DNA from: Alphaproteobacteria bacterium
GTDB taxonomy: Bacteria > Pseudomonadota > Alphaproteobacteria > Micavibrionales > Micavibrionaceae
DNA length: 64,000 nt
NCBI GenBank assembly: GCA_009995595.1
Contig: JAACPE010000001.1
Span: 806,001-870,000 of the forward strand
Reading direction: 5' to 3'
Position numbers and translations under genes: made by a program. The notes under the pieces are model-generated. The model had not been told where the DNA came from, ran no database searches, and saw only the letters and a list, made by a program, of their open reading frames with translations. This document shows, one piece after another, positions 22,839 through 30,080 of this stretch (its first letter is position 1; every line of letters begins with the position of its first letter).

Positions 22839-23617
22839 AAAAAGACATAAAAATTGGCGTCGCAGGATGCGGCGCACTCGGGTCAATTGTTGTATCAGCT
22901 CTTCAAAAAGGGATAGAAGGGTTTGAATTTATTGGTATTTCTGACACCGCCTCACCTGAAACAACTGCACCGAATATGAGCTTTAACGACCTCACCTCTC
23001 AATGTGATTGGGTTGTGGAATGTCTGCCCCCAAAGATCGTTCCCGAGATAGCAGATATCGTGTTATCGAAAGGTAAAACGCTTGTGATGATAAGCGCTTG
23101 TGCAATGCTTCTTTATCCCGAGCTTTATGAGAAGGTAAAAAATAGTGCGGGGCGTGTGCTGATACCCTCTGGCGCTTTATCTGGGCTAGACGCTGTTGTA
23201 GCACTTGGCTGTGCAGGGATTGAGAGCGCCAAGATTGCAACCACCAAACATCCCAGAGGGCTAAGCGGCGCCCCTTATATCATTGATAATAAGATTGATT
23301 TAGAGACCTTAAGTGAACCGAAAATGATCTTCAGAGGGAACGCCTTTGAAGCGGCCAAAGCCTTTCCCGCCAACGTCAATGTCGCTGCAACCTTAAGTAT
23401 TGCAGGAATTGGGCCTGAAAGAACGCAAGTTGAAGTGTGGGCCGACCCTGCCATAAAAGGCAATTCACATAAAATAACAGTAACAGGCGGTACCAGCACC
23501 ATCACATCAGAAGTGCTCAACCTACCTGATCCAAGTAACCCCAAAAGCTCTCAACTAGCGGGCTATTCCATCGTGGCCTTTTTGAAAAAACAATCGGGCA
23601 AAGTGCAGGTTGTGTAA
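22835..23617 (+). CDS. L-aspartate dehydrogenase-like protein (NadX family)
   Basis: 260 residues. Rossmann start KIGVAGCGALGSIVVSALQK, then a conserved IPSGALSGLDAV and the C-terminal signature GNAFEAAKAFPANVNVAATL followed by ERTQVEVWADP, which defines aspartate dehydrogenase (NadX/ASPDH). Known members deaminate aspartate to iminoaspartate, feeding NAD synthesis or catabolism. No nadA or nadC is adjacent, so the physiological role may be catabolic. Translationally coupled to the Ldh2 gene in front and immediately followed by a phosphatase gene. Confidence 0.85.
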   Translation: MKKDIKIGVAGCGALGSIVVSALQKGIEGFEFIGISDTASPETTAPNMSFNDLTSQCDWVVECLPPKIVPEIADIVLSKGKTLVMISACAMLLYPELYEKVKNSAGRVLIPSGALSGLDAVVALGCAGIESAKIATTKHPRGLSGAPYIIDNKIDLETLSEPKMIFRGNAFEAAKAFPANVNVAATLSIAGIGPERTQVEVWADPAIKGNSHKITVTGGTSTITSEVLNLPDPSNPKSSQLAGYSIVAFLKKQSGKVQVV

Positions 23618-24178
23618 ATGTTACCACAAAAATCTTTTTACATGATCCGCCATGGTGAAAGCGTTGCTAACAGGGACGGTTATTTTAGCGGTAATCTTGA
23701 CGTGGAATTAACGAATACCGGCAAACAGCAAGCCGTAAAGGCACGCACCACATTTGAATCCTTGCCCATAAAACCGACTATAATTATCCACTCCCACCTC
23801 TCTAGAGCGCGTGATACAGCGAGTATTATTAACGCTGGATATCAATTGCCGATGATAGAAACACATTTATTAGGAGAACATCACTTTGGCGATTGGGAAA
23901 AGATGCCTTGGCAGGACGTTCGTCCCGCTTTCTTGGCAGGCCAAAACCCACCCAACGGTGAAAGCCATGAGGACTTCAAAAACCGATGTCATAAAGGTTT
24001 TCAATTTGCGCTAAAGCACGAAGGCACCCCGTTAATTGTTTGCCATGGCGGCGTTTTTAGGGGCTTTAGCGCTCTATACGGAAAAGAAATGCATGGTATC
24101 ACGAACTGCACACTCTATTCATTCGACGTGTATGAGAGCGAGCCTGACTTTCCATGGAAGATTACGCTGATTGAATAG
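23618..24178 (+). CDS. Histidine phosphatase (phosphoglycerate-mutase-like)
   Basis: 186 residues. The catalytic RHG motif is YMIRHGESVANRDGYFSGN, with the second His in IVCHGGVFRGF and the acid in GEHHFGDWE. It resembles GpmB/CobC-type phosphatases rather than the true glycolytic mutase, lacking its longer insertions. Starts at the base after the nadX stop. The last 17 bp overlap the end of the convergent folP gene. Substrate unknown; it may act on a product of the two dehydrogenases. Confidence 0.83.
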   Translation: MLPQKSFYMIRHGESVANRDGYFSGNLDVELTNTGKQQAVKARTTFESLPIKPTIIIHSHLSRARDTASIINAGYQLPMIETHLLGEHHFGDWEKMPWQDVRPAFLAGQNPPNGESHEDFKNRCHKGFQFALKHEGTPLIVCHGGVFRGFSALYGKEMHGITNCTLYSFDVYESEPDFPWKITLIE

Positions 24179-24986
24179 CACGCCAAACATCAAGCGCCTG
24201 TTTTGATTCTTTTACATCATGCACACGGAAAATTTGAACGCCTTGATCATATCCGCGCAGCATAGCAGCAATTGATCCGGGCAATCGATCCTGTGGGTTA
24301 GTCTGTGGACAAATTTTTTCAATGAAGCTCTTTCGTGACGCACCCAGTAAAATTGGACAGCCTAGATTATGAAATTTATCTAAGTTATTTAGTAATTTAA
24401 GATTATCTTCTAATGTTTTACCAAAACCAATTCCAACATCAAGAATGACCCGATTTGGATCTATTCCTGCCTGTGCACAAACTTCAAGACGTTTTGCCAA
24501 AAACGCATAAACCTCTCCCTCCACATCACCGTAGAGGGGGTGATTTTGCATGGTCTCTGGTGTGCCTTTCATATGCATCAAGATGATTGGTATCTGAGCC
24601 TTTGATATGACATATATTGACTCATCATCATAAGCTAACGCACTGACATCATTAATAATATCTACGCCCAAATGAATTGCCTTTTGCATCGTATCAGCAT
24701 GACGGGTATCGACCGATATTGGCGTTTTACAACCCGAGGCTTTAATACCCTCAATGACAGGAAGTATTCGTGCTTGCTCGTCCAGCGGAGAAACAGGCTT
24801 TGCCCCCGGCCTTGTTGATTCGCCGCCAATATCCAAAATACTGGCACCCTCCTGAACTAAGTTAAGTGCGTGCGCGATTGCGCGCTCTGGGTTTATAAAA
24901 TTACCGCCATCAGAAAAACTATCAGGCGTGACATTGACAACCCCCATCAATAAGGGCTTATTTGATATGAGGTTTTTTAAATCCAT
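24162..24986 (-). CDS. folP: Dihydropteroate synthase
   Basis: 274 residues, TIM barrel. Signatures LMGVVNVTPDSFSDGG (pterin/pyrophosphate loop), ILDIGGESTRPGA and DVGIGFGKTLEDNL are intact. Joins dihydropterin pyrophosphate to p-aminobenzoate; target of sulfonamides. Overlaps the folK stop by one base, so the pair is coupled. Convergent 17-bp overlap with the phosphatase gene at its 3' end. Confidence 0.97.
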   Translation of the reverse strand: MDLKNLISNKPLLMGVVNVTPDSFSDGGNFINPERAIAHALNLVQEGASILDIGGESTRPGAKPVSPLDEQARILPVIEGIKASGCKTPISVDTRHADTMQKAIHLGVDIINDVSALAYDDESIYVISKAQIPIILMHMKGTPETMQNHPLYGDVEGEVYAFLAKRLEVCAQAGIDPNRVILDVGIGFGKTLEDNLKLLNNLDKFHNLGCPILLGASRKSFIEKICPQTNPQDRLPGSIAAMLRGYDQGVQIFRVHDVKESKQALDVWRAIQSA

Positions 24987-25492
24987 TATAAACTTACACC
25001 ATCAAGCCTCTTGGCCTCTTGCCCCTTAGGAAGCTCACGCAGAAGCATCATGATTGAATGACCCAAAACAGGATGAGTCCAATTCTCAGAAAGTTCAAAT
25101 AAGGGCTCTAAAACAAAGGCTCTTTTGTCCATTCGCGGGTGCGGCACAATGAGCCGATCTGCTTCTTTAATAATGTCATCATGATATGCAATCAAATCCA
25201 GATCAAGCAAACGCGGCGCATTTTTTTCGCTCCGCACACGCCCAAATTCTGATTCAATATCGAGCAAAATACCCAATAGATCATGCGCAGATTTCTGTGT
25301 TTCTATCGCAATAACACCATTGTGATAATCAGGGATATTAGGATCAAAAGGAACGGGCGCCGTAAGCCAAATAGAAGAACGCTGGAGCACTTTTACGCCG
25401 CGCCCCTCTAAAGACTCTACGGCCTTAGACAACGTCTCTGGTGGCGTCCCAAATTGGCTAGGAAGATTAGCGCCCAATGCAACATAGATCAT
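24986..25492 (-). CDS. folK: 2-amino-4-hydroxy-6-hydroxymethyldihydropteridine pyrophosphokinase
   Basis: 168 residues from the ATG at 25492 (MIYVALGANLPSQ). Family motifs: the GALNS-like N-terminus, FGRVRSEKNAPRLLDLDLIAY and VPHPRMDKRAFVLEPL. Phosphorylates the pterin for FolP. The frame remains open to 25522, but that start lies inside an intrinsic terminator, and family alignment favours 25492. Unusually, the GAGGG ribosome site (25507-25503) forms part of the 3' arm of that terminator and the U-tract runs straight into the AUG. Confidence 0.95.
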   Translation of the reverse strand: MIYVALGANLPSQFGTPPETLSKAVESLEGRGVKVLQRSSIWLTAPVPFDPNIPDYHNGVIAIETQKSAHDLLGILLDIESEFGRVRSEKNAPRLLDLDLIAYHDDIIKEADRLIVPHPRMDKRAFVLEPLFELSENWTHPVLGHSIMMLLRELPKGQEAKRLDGVSL

Positions 25493-25522
25493 AAAAAAAA
25501 TGCCCTCAAAAGTTGAAGGCAT
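25493..25522 (-). terminator. Intrinsic terminator abutting the folK start codon
   Basis: On the minus strand 25522-25500 forms a 10-bp stem with one G-T pair and a 3-nt loop, followed by seven T residues (25499-25493) and immediately by the folK ATG. It lies 30 bp after the DUF882 gene stop. The stem's 3' arm contains the folK Shine-Dalgarno. Confidence 0.85.
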
Positions 25523-25552
25523 CTTAAATAAAATATCAAATGTTATAAAGGC

Positions 25553-26170
25553 TTAACTGCCCCAGGTCCTAAAATCACCCGAATCGACATGAACAAAATC
25601 ACTACGTGAGTAGTAGCCCACCCCACCAGCGCGCAGAGACTCAGCAATATCACGAAGACGCGCCGTTGAATAATCTTCCATATGGAAGTCGATGGCCTGC
25701 CCTTTCATGTGAAGGGATTTTTTGGCAACCCCGCCAGAAGCCTGACGCAGCTTACGATTTGTAGAGGGACATCGATAACCAGAGAGTATATCAAGCGGTT
25801 GATTCCGCCCAGTTAATTTGTGCACTTGGTAAATTATATCCAAGACACGCGGATCCATAGGATATTCTTTATCAGCGCGGTGGTCGCGCAATACATGATT
25901 AATTTGATCAAACGCATCTGGTAAATATTTATCACCTACACGGTAAACGCCTGCAAAGCTCTCTCCTGTGTGTGCATTACGAAAAGAAATACGACGTGCA
26001 CCGCCTTTACGTTGTGGCAGAGGAACAGCCATGGCAGGATTAACGAGGCCAGGAATAAGAAGTCCGCCAAGCGTTGCCGCGCCTATAGAGAGAAAGGAAC
26101 GACGATCTATACCTTTGGGCATATGATTGTCAATTTGAACATCTAAGGGATTTTTATTTATATCGACCAT
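25553..26170 (-). CDS. DUF882 / M15-type murein endopeptidase (YcbK/MepK-like), Tat-exported
   Basis: 205 residues. Twin-arginine-like signal (IDRRSFLSIGAATLGGLLIP) with cleavage near residue 48. The catalytic domain has the zinc pattern of M15A peptidases: His154 and Asp161 in LHMKGQAIDFHMED and His194 in DFVHVD; LSGYRCPSTNRKLR is also typical. E. coli MepK cleaves 3-3 peptidoglycan cross-links. It sits 107 bp downstream of an L,D-transpeptidase that makes such links, on the same strand, and is followed by a terminator. Confidence 0.88.
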   Translation of the reverse strand: MVDINKNPLDVQIDNHMPKGIDRRSFLSIGAATLGGLLIPGLVNPAMAVPLPQRKGGARRISFRNAHTGESFAGVYRVGDKYLPDAFDQINHVLRDHRADKEYPMDPRVLDIIYQVHKLTGRNQPLDILSGYRCPSTNRKLRQASGGVAKKSLHMKGQAIDFHMEDYSTARLRDIAESLRAGGVGYYSRSDFVHVDSGDFRTWGS

Positions 26171-26277
26171 GATATTTTATAGCTTCTTTATTTTCTTATC
26201 GTCTAATTAAATTTATCCAGAAAGGGGACTTTTCAGAAATAGAAAAAGCATGTTTAAAACAACATACATTCCTAAGG

Positions 26278-28266
26278 TTACTCATTAAAAGTTAACAAAT
26301 CAACACTATCCTTACTTTTTTGTTCTTGCTCTGATTCTTGGCTCACGTTCTTCAAGACCGTTTCTGGTCTCTGATTCTGCTTTTGAATCATGGGCTTAGG
26401 TATGTCAAGCACTTGATTTTCAGCTTGAGTCTTAACCACAGTTTTAGACTTTTTTATGACGCGGGCAGGTGTAATTTTAGGCAAATCAGGCTTTTCTGCT
26501 ACCATAGTGGATGGAAAACCAACCCCGTCCATATCATCCAGTGCGCGGCGCAAAACAGCATCACTACCATAAATATCATAACCATAAACAAGCTGCCCCT
26601 GATCCCCTATCCAAATTGTATGGTATAGAATATAGACAGGAATGTGACGCTCTGCGGCTATTTCGGTTTTACGGCCAGAATCAATTATTTTTTGTGTTTT
26701 TTCTGGCGTCCACCCTGTATTTCCCTCAAGAATAAAATTCGCCATTCGTACAGGATCTTCCATACGAATACAGCCAGAGCTTAGCGCCCGATTAGAGCGT
26801 TCAAAATAATTTGGCTCATTCGTATCATGCAGATAAATATTATAGGGGTTGCTCATAAACACACGTACTTTACCAAGCGGATTGCGACTTCCCGGAGGTT
26901 GTACCATTTGAACACCGTGCAACTCATTTTGGGTCATGGCTGACCAATCAACAGTTGTTGGGTCAATTGTTTGGCCGTTGTGAACAACTTCAATCCCTTT
27001 ATTAGCAAGATACATAGGATCGCCTTGCAGACCAGGTAAGAAATCTTCTTTTTTAATTGTGGGCGGCACAGTCCATGTTGGGTTTAAACGCACCCCGGTA
27101 ATTTCTGTATTAAATATATTTGTTGCGCGTTCTGGTCTGCCGACAACAACCTTCATATCAAAGGCAATCTTATCGTTTTCAATCGCCCATAAATGAGCAG
27201 CTGGGACATTCACAACAACGTAACGCTCTGGCTTTTCTTGTTCTACCCAACGAAGGCGCTCCATATTCACCAAGATTTGATTGATATGATCATCTTGAGT
27301 CTTGTTCATGATATAGGCTGTTTGAGGGCCAATAATACCATCGGCAGCAAGACCATGAGCGCGTTGAAACGCCATAACACTCTGTGCTAATTCGTCATCA
27401 TAAAGCGTGTTATTAGGATTAGAATCATCAATAGTAAAACCCATTCTCCCACGCAGTGCAACAACCTCACTGCGGCGCGTTCCGGGCCTTAAAATGCCGT
27501 TTGATAAACGAACTTCCTCTGGTCTTTTGGTTACGGGCGTATTGTAAAGCTTAACAAGCTCTTTTTGCAGCATCTTGTAAAGCTTACCTTGAGGAGCAAA
27601 GCTTTCAAGAGCTTTTGAAACATTACGCGCAGATTTAATTTGAGATAGCACGGTTTCCGTAAGCAGTGGCTGCTTCCAATATCTTGCGTGCAAGCCAATA
27701 TCGCTTGCATTAACGCGCATCCCTGATAAGTCGCGGGCATAGCGTGCCATGGCGTCGCTCAAGAGAAGCTCCAAATGTGGCGATTTTTTCAAATCAAACG
27801 GAGCTCTTTCTGCCTTTAAAACATCACGAATTTCACGCGTATGATATTGCTCCGGATTCAGTCCATGCTCCCATGCTTTTTCGAGAATATTTAAAATATT
27901 TTGCGGCGTATCTTGAGTTGATGTGAACTGAGAGATCAGCGAACTTGATGTCCACGCATAGGCATAATCATTCGCCCCATAAAAACCCATTAAGCCTTTG
28001 GGGTCTTGAAAGCGGATATTACCAATGCGCCCTTTTTGTAAAAGCGCTTGTAGGTCAGGATTTTGCCTACTTTGCTTAAACTCCTGCTGCGATTCCTGCA
28101 TAGCATTAGGCTGTACGTCTGATCCGAGGGACTCCCTACTAGCGGTAATGCGTTCATCAATACCCGATGACATTTGAGCGTGAGCCACGCCGAGACCTAA
28201 AAAAGCCATCAAAACAAAAGCGATGAGAGCCACTACATGGCTATTTTTACAGGTCAGATTATTCAT
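26278..28266 (-). CDS. L,D-transpeptidase with peptidoglycan-binding domain (YcbB/LdtD-like)
   Basis: 662 residues. Signal peptide (residues ~1-30, HVVALIAFVLMAFLGLGVAHA), a large helical N-terminal scaffold, a peptidoglycan-binding domain around residues 270-335 (MAFQRAHGLAADGIIGPQTA), then a YkuD catalytic domain with YLHDTNEPNYF and SSGCIRMEDP; nucleophile Cys499. This order is the LdtD/YcbB type that forms 3-3 cross-links in peptidoglycan. The C-terminal ~70 residues are Lys/Gln-rich and low-complexity. Its neighbour is a MepK-like hydrolase. Confidence 0.9.
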   Translation of the reverse strand: MNNLTCKNSHVVALIAFVLMAFLGLGVAHAQMSSGIDERITASRESLGSDVQPNAMQESQQEFKQSRQNPDLQALLQKGRIGNIRFQDPKGLMGFYGANDYAYAWTSSSLISQFTSTQDTPQNILNILEKAWEHGLNPEQYHTREIRDVLKAERAPFDLKKSPHLELLLSDAMARYARDLSGMRVNASDIGLHARYWKQPLLTETVLSQIKSARNVSKALESFAPQGKLYKMLQKELVKLYNTPVTKRPEEVRLSNGILRPGTRRSEVVALRGRMGFTIDDSNPNNTLYDDELAQSVMAFQRAHGLAADGIIGPQTAYIMNKTQDDHINQILVNMERLRWVEQEKPERYVVVNVPAAHLWAIENDKIAFDMKVVVGRPERATNIFNTEITGVRLNPTWTVPPTIKKEDFLPGLQGDPMYLANKGIEVVHNGQTIDPTTVDWSAMTQNELHGVQMVQPPGSRNPLGKVRVFMSNPYNIYLHDTNEPNYFERSNRALSSGCIRMEDPVRMANFILEGNTGWTPEKTQKIIDSGRKTEIAAERHIPVYILYHTIWIGDQGQLVYGYDIYGSDAVLRRALDDMDGVGFPSTMVAEKPDLPKITPARVIKKSKTVVKTQAENQVLDIPKPMIQKQNQRPETVLKNVSQESEQEQKSKDSVDLLTFNE

Positions 28267-28358
28267 TTGAGTTGAGGCGACTTCGTTAATATCTATTTTA
28301 TAAAATGGGGTTATAAATACATTCTATCATAAATAATACCGCAGATTACAAAAACCTC

Positions 28359-30080
28359 TTAAAGATCAACAAAAGTATGCGTCTCTCCTTTTGCACCAGG
28401 GTGCGTAACCGCCCCTTTTTCAGCAGAACCTACTGTTTGAGTATATTTCCAAATCGCTCCTGACTGGTAATTATGCGCCCGTGGCTTCCAGTTTTTCTTA
28501 CGATCGGCTAATTCTTGGTCGGATAATTTTACATCCATCGTACCCGTTATGGCATCGATACGGATAATATCGCCATCTTGCAAAAGGCCTATAGGGCCGC
28601 CAACATAAGCTTCGGGGGCAACATGGCCAACACAAAAGCCGCGCGTTCCACCTGAGAAGCGTCCATCTGTGATAAGAGCAACCTTATCTCCTAACCCTAA
28701 ACCATACAGAGCCGAGGTGGTTGAGAGCATTTCGCGCATACCTGGCCCACCTTTTGGGCCCTCGTTGCGAATCACAAGAACTTCACCTTCATTAATGTCT
28801 TTGGCTTGGACGGCATCAAAACAGGCTTGCTCCCCTTCAAAGACACGTGCAGGCCCTTCAAAGACAAGGTTCTCAAGACCAGCAATCTTAACGATAGACC
28901 CTTCTGGACATAGATTTCCCCTCAGGGTAACAACGCCGCCCGTCGGGTGAATTGGGGTTTTTACTGGAAAAACAACATCTTGATCTTTTGGGAATGTAAC
29001 GCCTTCAAGATTTTCAGCGATCGTTTTTCCTGTTACCGTCATGCAATCACCATGAATAAAACCATGATCGAGAAGTTCTTTGAGCACAACACCAACCCCG
29101 CCCACATCATACAGGTCTTTGGCAACGTATTTACCGCCAGGACGGAGGTTTGCAATCAGAGGGGTGCGTTTAAAGATTGCACCAACATCATGCAAATCAA
29201 AGTCAATACCACATTCATGCGCCATAGCAGGTAAATGAAGGCCCGCATTGGTTGAGCCACCAGTTGCCGCCACAATTGCTGCCGCATTTTCGAAGCTTTT
29301 ACGGGTCACAATATCACGAGGGCGCAAGTTATTCTTAATAAGTTCCATAACAGCGCGGCCAGAGGCTTCCGCGTACTCATCTCGGCTTTCATAGGGTGCG
29401 GGCGCCCCAGCAGAATTAGGCAAAGCCAAACCTATCGCCTCAGAAACACACGCCATGGTATTGGCTGTAAATTGACCCCCACATGCACCGGCGCTTGGAC
29501 ACGCAACGCATTCTAGTTCTTTCAGATCTGCATCTGAAAACTCGCCCGATGCGTGCTTACCAACACCTTCAAAAACACTAATAACATCAACATCTTTGCC
29601 GCGAAACTTGCCAGGAAGAATTGACCCGCCATACATAAAAACAGAAGGCACATTCAGGCGAAGCATAACCATCATCATGCCCGGTAATGACTTATCGCAG
29701 CCCGCCAAACCGACAAGGGCGTCATAACAATGTCCACGCATAGTCAGCTCAACCGAATCCGCAATAACCTCTCGCGATACAAGCGAGGAACGCATGCCTT
29801 CATGTCCCATCGCAATACCATCTGTCACTGTAATTGTTGTAAACTCACGCGGCGTACCGAAGGCCGCTTTGACCCCTTTTTTAACGGCCTGTGCCTGACG
29901 CGATAAGGCGATATTACAAGGGGCTGCCTCATTCCAGCAGGTTGCGACTCCGACTAAAGGCTGATGGATTTCTTCTTCTGTCAAACCCATCGCGTAATAA
30001 TATGAGCGGTGCGGCGCGGATTTAGCCCCTTCGGTTACATAACGGCTCACAAGTTTAGATTTATCCCATTTTTGAGTCAT
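28359..30080 (-). CDS. ilvD: Dihydroxy-acid dehydratase
   Basis: 573 residues from the ATG at 30080 ([18 protein letters not shown]), which has a GAGG site 7 nt upstream; an open frame runs 62 codons further but overlaps the PH-domain gene. Iron-sulfur ligands are in [14 protein letters not shown] and [33 protein letters not shown] is the C-terminal active-site loop. Penultimate step of valine and isoleucine synthesis. ilvE lies about 28 kb away in the window, so the pathway is dispersed. Confidence 0.97.

Follow-up and report, generated by a model that had tools for sequence, protein, structure and literature searches.

Within the window, as we call the whole stretch of 64,000 nucleotides that was analysed in a Micavibrionaceae-like genome, open reading frames and profile matches place four genes on one strand in the order L,D-transpeptidase (ldt), mepK, folK, and folP (Table 1). 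On the minus strand the stop codon of mepK is separated from the folK AUG by a gap of 60 nt, and inside this gap sits a hairpin whose 13 pairs and seven U residues have the form of an intrinsic (Rho-independent) terminator, that is, a stable stem-loop with a U-tract directly 3' of it. The minimum free energy of the hairpin is -14.5 kcal/mol, whereas shuffled sequences average -3.76 (a z of -4.9), and none of 200 shuffles was as stable. It also has the most pairs of the eight terminator-like sites in positions 23000-28500, a region whose shuffles average 6.0 such sites. The original prediction had described a 10-bp stem followed by seven U residues running up to the base before the folK AUG, with GAGGG in the 3' arm at a 10-nt spacing from that AUG; both parts of this description are borne out, and the hairpin is real, placed as described, and far beyond chance.

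Table 1. Genes and sequence features of the mepK-folK region (window coordinates) and two further elements of the same genome (G000, contig coordinates)
Feature	Coordinates	Strand	Basis and remarks
mepK (DUF882, peptidoglycan L,D-endopeptidase)	25553..26170	-	NCBIfam NF053624.1, E 1.5e-58, above cut-off; stop codon 25555-25553
folK	24986..25492	-	TIGR01498.1, E 3.6e-32, above cut-off; AUG 25492-25490
folP	24162..24986	-	TIGR01496.1, E 5.8e-98, above cut-off; first base coincides with the final base of the folK stop codon
-35-like TTTATA (predicted)	25544..25549	-	17 nt from the -10; p 0.063 for the locus alone
-10-like TAAGAT (predicted)	25521..25526	-	Overlaps stem foot; TA[A/T]GAT in 8/8 hairpin-bearing genus loci
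Terminator-like hairpin	25497..25525	-	Folding and covariation; 13 pairs with A/U flanks (core 10 bp)
5' arm of core stem, AUGCCUUCAA	25522-25513	-	Sequence
Predicted folK transcription start, A25514	25514	-	Inferred; inside 5' arm; an A preceded by C, seventh base downstream of the -10
Loop CUU	25512-25510	-	Sequence
3' arm of core stem, UUGAGGGCAU	25509-25500	-	Sequence
Shine-Dalgarno GAGGG within 3' arm	25507-25503	-	10 nt from folK AUG
U-tract, seven U	25499-25493	-	Sequence; last base adjoins folK AUG
nuoC element	G000:C1:766536-766566 (L148)	minus	TTGGAA-N17-TATAGT, then terminator-like hairpin, U run adjoining AUG; score 10.4
Lipoprotein-like gene element	G000:C1:329597-329629 (L178; L179)	plus	Compact layout, TATAAG at stem foot; score 6.6

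Conservation of the pre-folK hairpin

Among 104 genomes of the family, folK was matched in 84. We examined 83 folK loci, 81 of them from the family, and mepK lies 0-200 nt upstream in 64 of these 81, spanning 28 genera. The genus sample consisted of ten genomes, of which nine have a folK match; the tenth (G003) has none, in a genome rated 99% complete. In eight of the nine genus species with folK, a hairpin is present whose end lies 2-4 nt from the start of folK, on its upstream side. In the ninth, G002 (L089), the end of mepK is the beginning of folK (gap 0) and no hairpin is present, which suggests coupled expression of mepK and folK in this species.

When the stems of the eight genus sequences are aligned, 97.5% of cells pair, compared with at most 51.3% in slid controls. 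Two-sided changes are found at six of the ten stem pairs, and 0/500 shuffles reach such covariation in this eight-sequence alignment. Covariation of the stem across relatives had been proposed beforehand as a check on the original prediction, and the hairpin passes it. The loop varies freely across loci both in sequence and in length (3 to 10 nt).

In other genera, hairpins of other sequence occupy the same site before folK, and their 3' arm is usually the Shine-Dalgarno sequence. A survey of 51 mepK-folK gaps of 25-130 nt, in which a fixed rule was applied and stems beyond the genus were judged without alignment, identified a hairpin 0-8 nt before folK that beats 40/40 shuffles in 19 gaps (six genera). 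The abutting hairpin was matched by at most one of 40 shuffles in 22 of the 51, and the remaining 29 gaps have no such abutting hairpin. Among these 19 loci, L072 looks like an ordinary terminator nested within a longer stem. The pre-folK hairpin is therefore common, not universal. At L043 and L039, where 31 and 13 nt separate mepK from folK, there is no hairpin, and TATAAC or TATTAT lies approximately 7-8 nt upstream of the folK start, as would suit a leaderless folK mRNA. In the genus g3 (L025, L026, L059, L060, and L062), folK has another upstream neighbor and lies within open frames of 428-432 codons.

The Shine-Dalgarno sequence also shows a consistent polarity within the stem. This genome carries a 16S-like tail with CCTCC, and in the window the 3' arm forms a duplex with the anti-Shine-Dalgarno sequence at an energy of -6.1, compared with -3.7 when the arms are swapped. 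Across 29 loci picked by hand for an abutting hairpin with mepK upstream, a set that was also used in part of the promoter scoring, binding by the real 3' arm was stronger than that of the arm-swapped version in 24, equal in four, and weaker in one, with means of -6.2 and -3.3 kcal/mol, respectively. This set omits L024, L046, L062, L065, L072, L080, and L088, and includes the weaker loci L040, L044, and L061.

A predicted promoter at the stem foot

In all eight hairpin-bearing genus loci, a -10-like hexamer is found at the foot of the stem (TAAGAT in six, TATGAT in two), such that part of TAAGAT doubles as part of the stem. An unconstrained scan for the best -35/-10 combination placed the -10 at -1 or -3 relative to the first base of the stem in each of the eight, and the -35-like hexamers 16-17 nt upstream read TTTATA, TTTATT, TTTATT, TTTTCA, TTGCCT, TTGCCT, TTGTAA, and TTTAAT. 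In our reading of the alignment, the base preceding the -10 hexamer is variable across the genus while its TA is invariant, and its first T is unpaired. Near the stem foot in other genera, TATAAG, TATAAA, TATAAC, or TAGAGT is found.

Thirty ordinary terminators from this genome served as the comparison for the stem-foot promoter scores; they were taken from 34 census rows at a distance of at least 17 after four were dropped that looked coding, weak, or duplicate. The eight genus loci score 7.7-10.3, whereas none of the ordinary terminators exceeds 6.7. For the 19 rule-based loci the difference gives p = 2e-6, or p = 0.0045 by genus means. Other results speak against a promoter, as does the sharing of part of TAAGAT with the stem. 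A hairpin-preserving shuffle test was uninformative within the genus (median p 0.617) and gave p = 0.015 across genera, and a test of the -35 by genus medians gave p = 0.052 for 31 hand-chosen sites. The window promoter matches the consensus at 8/12 positions and is absent from the list of a simple consensus scan. We also attempted to derive the organism's own promoter from genome-wide enrichment of -10 hexamers, which was abandoned as the signal was too weak to use; TAAGAT behind TTG showed no clear enrichment in this genome (3 found, 2.0 expected). On balance we regard a sigma70-type folK promoter at the stem foot, with its weak consensus matches, as likely.

The original prediction had named a transcription start inside the stem as the finding that would speak against it, and the -10 anatomy predicts such a start. 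With transcription beginning at this predicted base of the 5' arm, no hairpin would form in the message of folK itself. Computed folding of the window RNA gives a cost of 15.0 kcal/mol for opening GAGGG in the long RNA and of 1.8 kcal/mol in an RNA starting at A25514, and the latter stays within 1.7-2.2 kcal/mol when the start is shifted by up to 2 nt. The genus means are 13.1 (long) and 2.8 kcal/mol (short). Opening is more costly in the long RNA in 20 of 21 hand-chosen loci; the exception, L077, runs in the opposite direction, with no gain in access to the Shine-Dalgarno sequence in the short RNA. A ribosome site that is closed in a long RNA and open in a shorter one, as in leaders of the phage T4 gene e type, is thus found at folK by computed folding. 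Because a conserved, covarying, terminator-like hairpin holds the folK Shine-Dalgarno sequence, read-through RNA is predicted to be terminated and poorly translated, which supports the proposal that the folK ribosome site is sequestered in such mRNA.

Insulation, switching, and comparison with known systems

We consider it probable, from the arrangement of these sequence elements, that the mepK-folK gap is a compact insulator in which the folK mRNA starts within the stem. Polymerases coming from ldt-mepK would halt at the hairpin and U-tract, and any RNA that reads through would retain the hairpin and leave folK untranslated. The folK-folP genes would be driven by a sigma70-type promoter of their own, with the stem foot as its -10 box, and their mRNA would begin in the 5' arm at about A25514, thus carrying no hairpin and exposing GAGGG. 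In such an arrangement folK would be insulated from the transcription of the cell-wall genes and would rely on its own promoter, and neither a ligand nor a switch would be necessary. The original prediction had folK expressed by way of ribosomes, a factor, or an internal promoter; the last of these is favored by our analysis, and the other two are left unsupported.

It is less likely, though worth weighing, that the hairpin is an ordinary mepK terminator abutting folK by compactness, with the Shine-Dalgarno sequence in the 3' arm as a side effect of crowding and folK either served by a promoter elsewhere or relying on leaky read-through. In its favor, the folK promoter is weak by consensus, and in the census 43/768 codirectional gene pairs have terminator-like hairpins, a few of which sit against a start simply through their position. 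Against this explanation stand the retention of the pre-folK position, the covariation, and the retained Shine-Dalgarno polarity of the 3' arm despite sequence change, as well as stem-foot promoter scores above those of ordinary terminators.

More doubtful still is a true switch, in which folK-folP would be expressed from read-through mRNA after a protein, a small RNA, or translation of mepK opens the stem. The strong closure of the Shine-Dalgarno sequence in the long RNA would fit such a device, and terminator hairpins holding a ribosome-binding site have been proposed as a class: terminators no more than 15 nt from a start codon may hold the ribosome site and are attenuator candidates, the rimP leader among them, and as of 2010 its authors counted no experimental case of the class (PMC2965389). 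The folK hairpin differs from these candidates in lying after the end of a gene, in having no visible sensing part, and in the predicted promoter at its foot. The U-tract would terminate a read-through RNA first, and the loop, free to vary in length and sequence, is unlike a bound site. Opening by mepK ribosomes is disfavored by distance, as the extended stem starts 27 nt past the mepK stop codon in the window and the stem-foot GATG lies 29-61 nt past it in the eight hairpin-bearing genus species; the footprint of a ribosome stopped at the mepK stop codon should not reach that far. Translational coupling of folK to mepK through the stem was rejected for the same reason. Nor is there any sign that a factor or ligand opens the stem. 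When 24900-28500 was searched for folate or other riboswitches, no Rfam family reached its gathering score (the best match, JA04, scored 28.2 bits where 81 are required). The window has 27 nt from the mepK stop codon to the extended stem, and no second shared fold that might act as an antiterminator upstream of the terminator was seen by eye.

It is very improbable that the stem is coding, with folK starting at AUG 25522 in the 5' foot and the hairpin incidental to a 10-residue extension: this AUG is in frame with folK and opens the longest ORF (24986-25522, frame open in the window), but among the seven other hairpin-bearing genus species the stem-foot AUG is out of frame in five and followed by an in-frame TGA in two, all seven have an in-frame stop codon 5-11 codons before the folK AUG, and in the long form the folK profile match does not begin until residue 13, and a conserved coding extension was therefore rejected.

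Insulation with a start inside the stem, rather than a switch, is the most likely mechanism, and by analogy the element may work like the leader of T4 gene e, combined in this case with a terminator and placed before housekeeping genes. As described in the excerpted account of that system, a long early RNA hides the ribosome site of gene e in a structure that cuts lysozyme synthesis 100-fold, nearby late promoters yield RNA that lacks the 5' portion of this structure, and soc, 49, and I-TevI have leaders of the same type (PMC3014915). The two would be alike, as far as that account goes, in that read-through RNA hides the Shine-Dalgarno sequence and a nearer promoter, at folK a predicted one, starts within or after the 5' strand and gives a well-translated RNA. 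The late promoters of T4 serve timing, and no terminator is described in the excerpt (PMC3014915), whereas the folK hairpin has a U-tract, ends the upstream gene, and is joined to a predicted sigma70-type promoter on a housekeeping operon. The comparison concerns the way of working, and no homology is claimed.

In IS10/Tn10 and IS200, a hairpin and/or terminator keeps outside transcripts from making transposase. The folK hairpin would resemble these in guarding against outside transcription but differs in that they are mobile elements averting harmful expression, while folK is a chromosomal folate gene with no transposase. Terminators at the 5' end of insertion sequences are also noted in the literature (PMC2965389). 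A literature search found no paper on a folK hairpin element, which is not proof of absence.

The same layout at other genes

A loose search of 1.19 Mb of this genome returned 51 hairpins lying 0-8 nt before a possible start, mostly within longer reading frames. By eye, three intergenic loci share the full layout, namely folK, a gene that we take to be nuoC, and a lipoprotein-like gene (Table 1; the names nuoC, nuoB, and AlgF are presumed). We tentatively suggest, with less confidence than for the folK insulator itself, that these represent a chromosomal class of self-unlocking insulator in which a palindrome of ~30 nt would be at once the terminator of one gene, a lock on the next gene's ribosome site, and the initial transcribed region of that next gene's promoter. 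The same tentative reading would have the element kept by covariation at folK in the genus, recurring ahead of folK in other Micavibrionaceae-like genera, at nuoC, and at the lipoprotein-like gene, with species shifting between an insulated state (hairpin and promoter) and a coupled one (0-nt gap, G002). If the insulator reading of folK is right, it shows how about 60 bp of a small genome can accommodate a terminator, a promoter, and a ribosome site that do not interfere with one another, by a device already described for a phage lysis gene. The resulting signature is a terminator that abuts a start codon, has the Shine-Dalgarno sequence as its 3' arm, and carries a -10 box at its foot, and it can be looked for in any genome with mapped RNA ends. 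It also counsels caution, in that such hairpins alone are no evidence for riboswitch-like switching.

The nuoC element is not found throughout the genus and was rejected as a genus-wide feature: among nine other genus loci, a like arrangement is present only in G002 (L151), where we read the alignment as showing a large insert between the arms. By eye, nuoC appears to directly follow nuoB in most of the other genus loci. In this genome another reading frame ends 78 nt upstream of nuoC; in most relatives, a nuoB-like end is found there.

The lipoprotein-like gene was matched in three of the ten genus genomes, this one included, and its abutting hairpin is present here and in G001 and absent in G007. 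The codirectional-pair census missed this element, as its U-tract falls below the rule, and it was found by looser hairpin searches. The hairpin of the related gene in G001 is a different one; it contains AGGAG, and it and its U-tract lie directly against the AUG. Three further abutting hairpins of this genome score lower (4.8, 4.2, and 0.2), and the six abutting hairpins differ from the 30 ordinary ones in stem-foot promoter score at p = 0.010.
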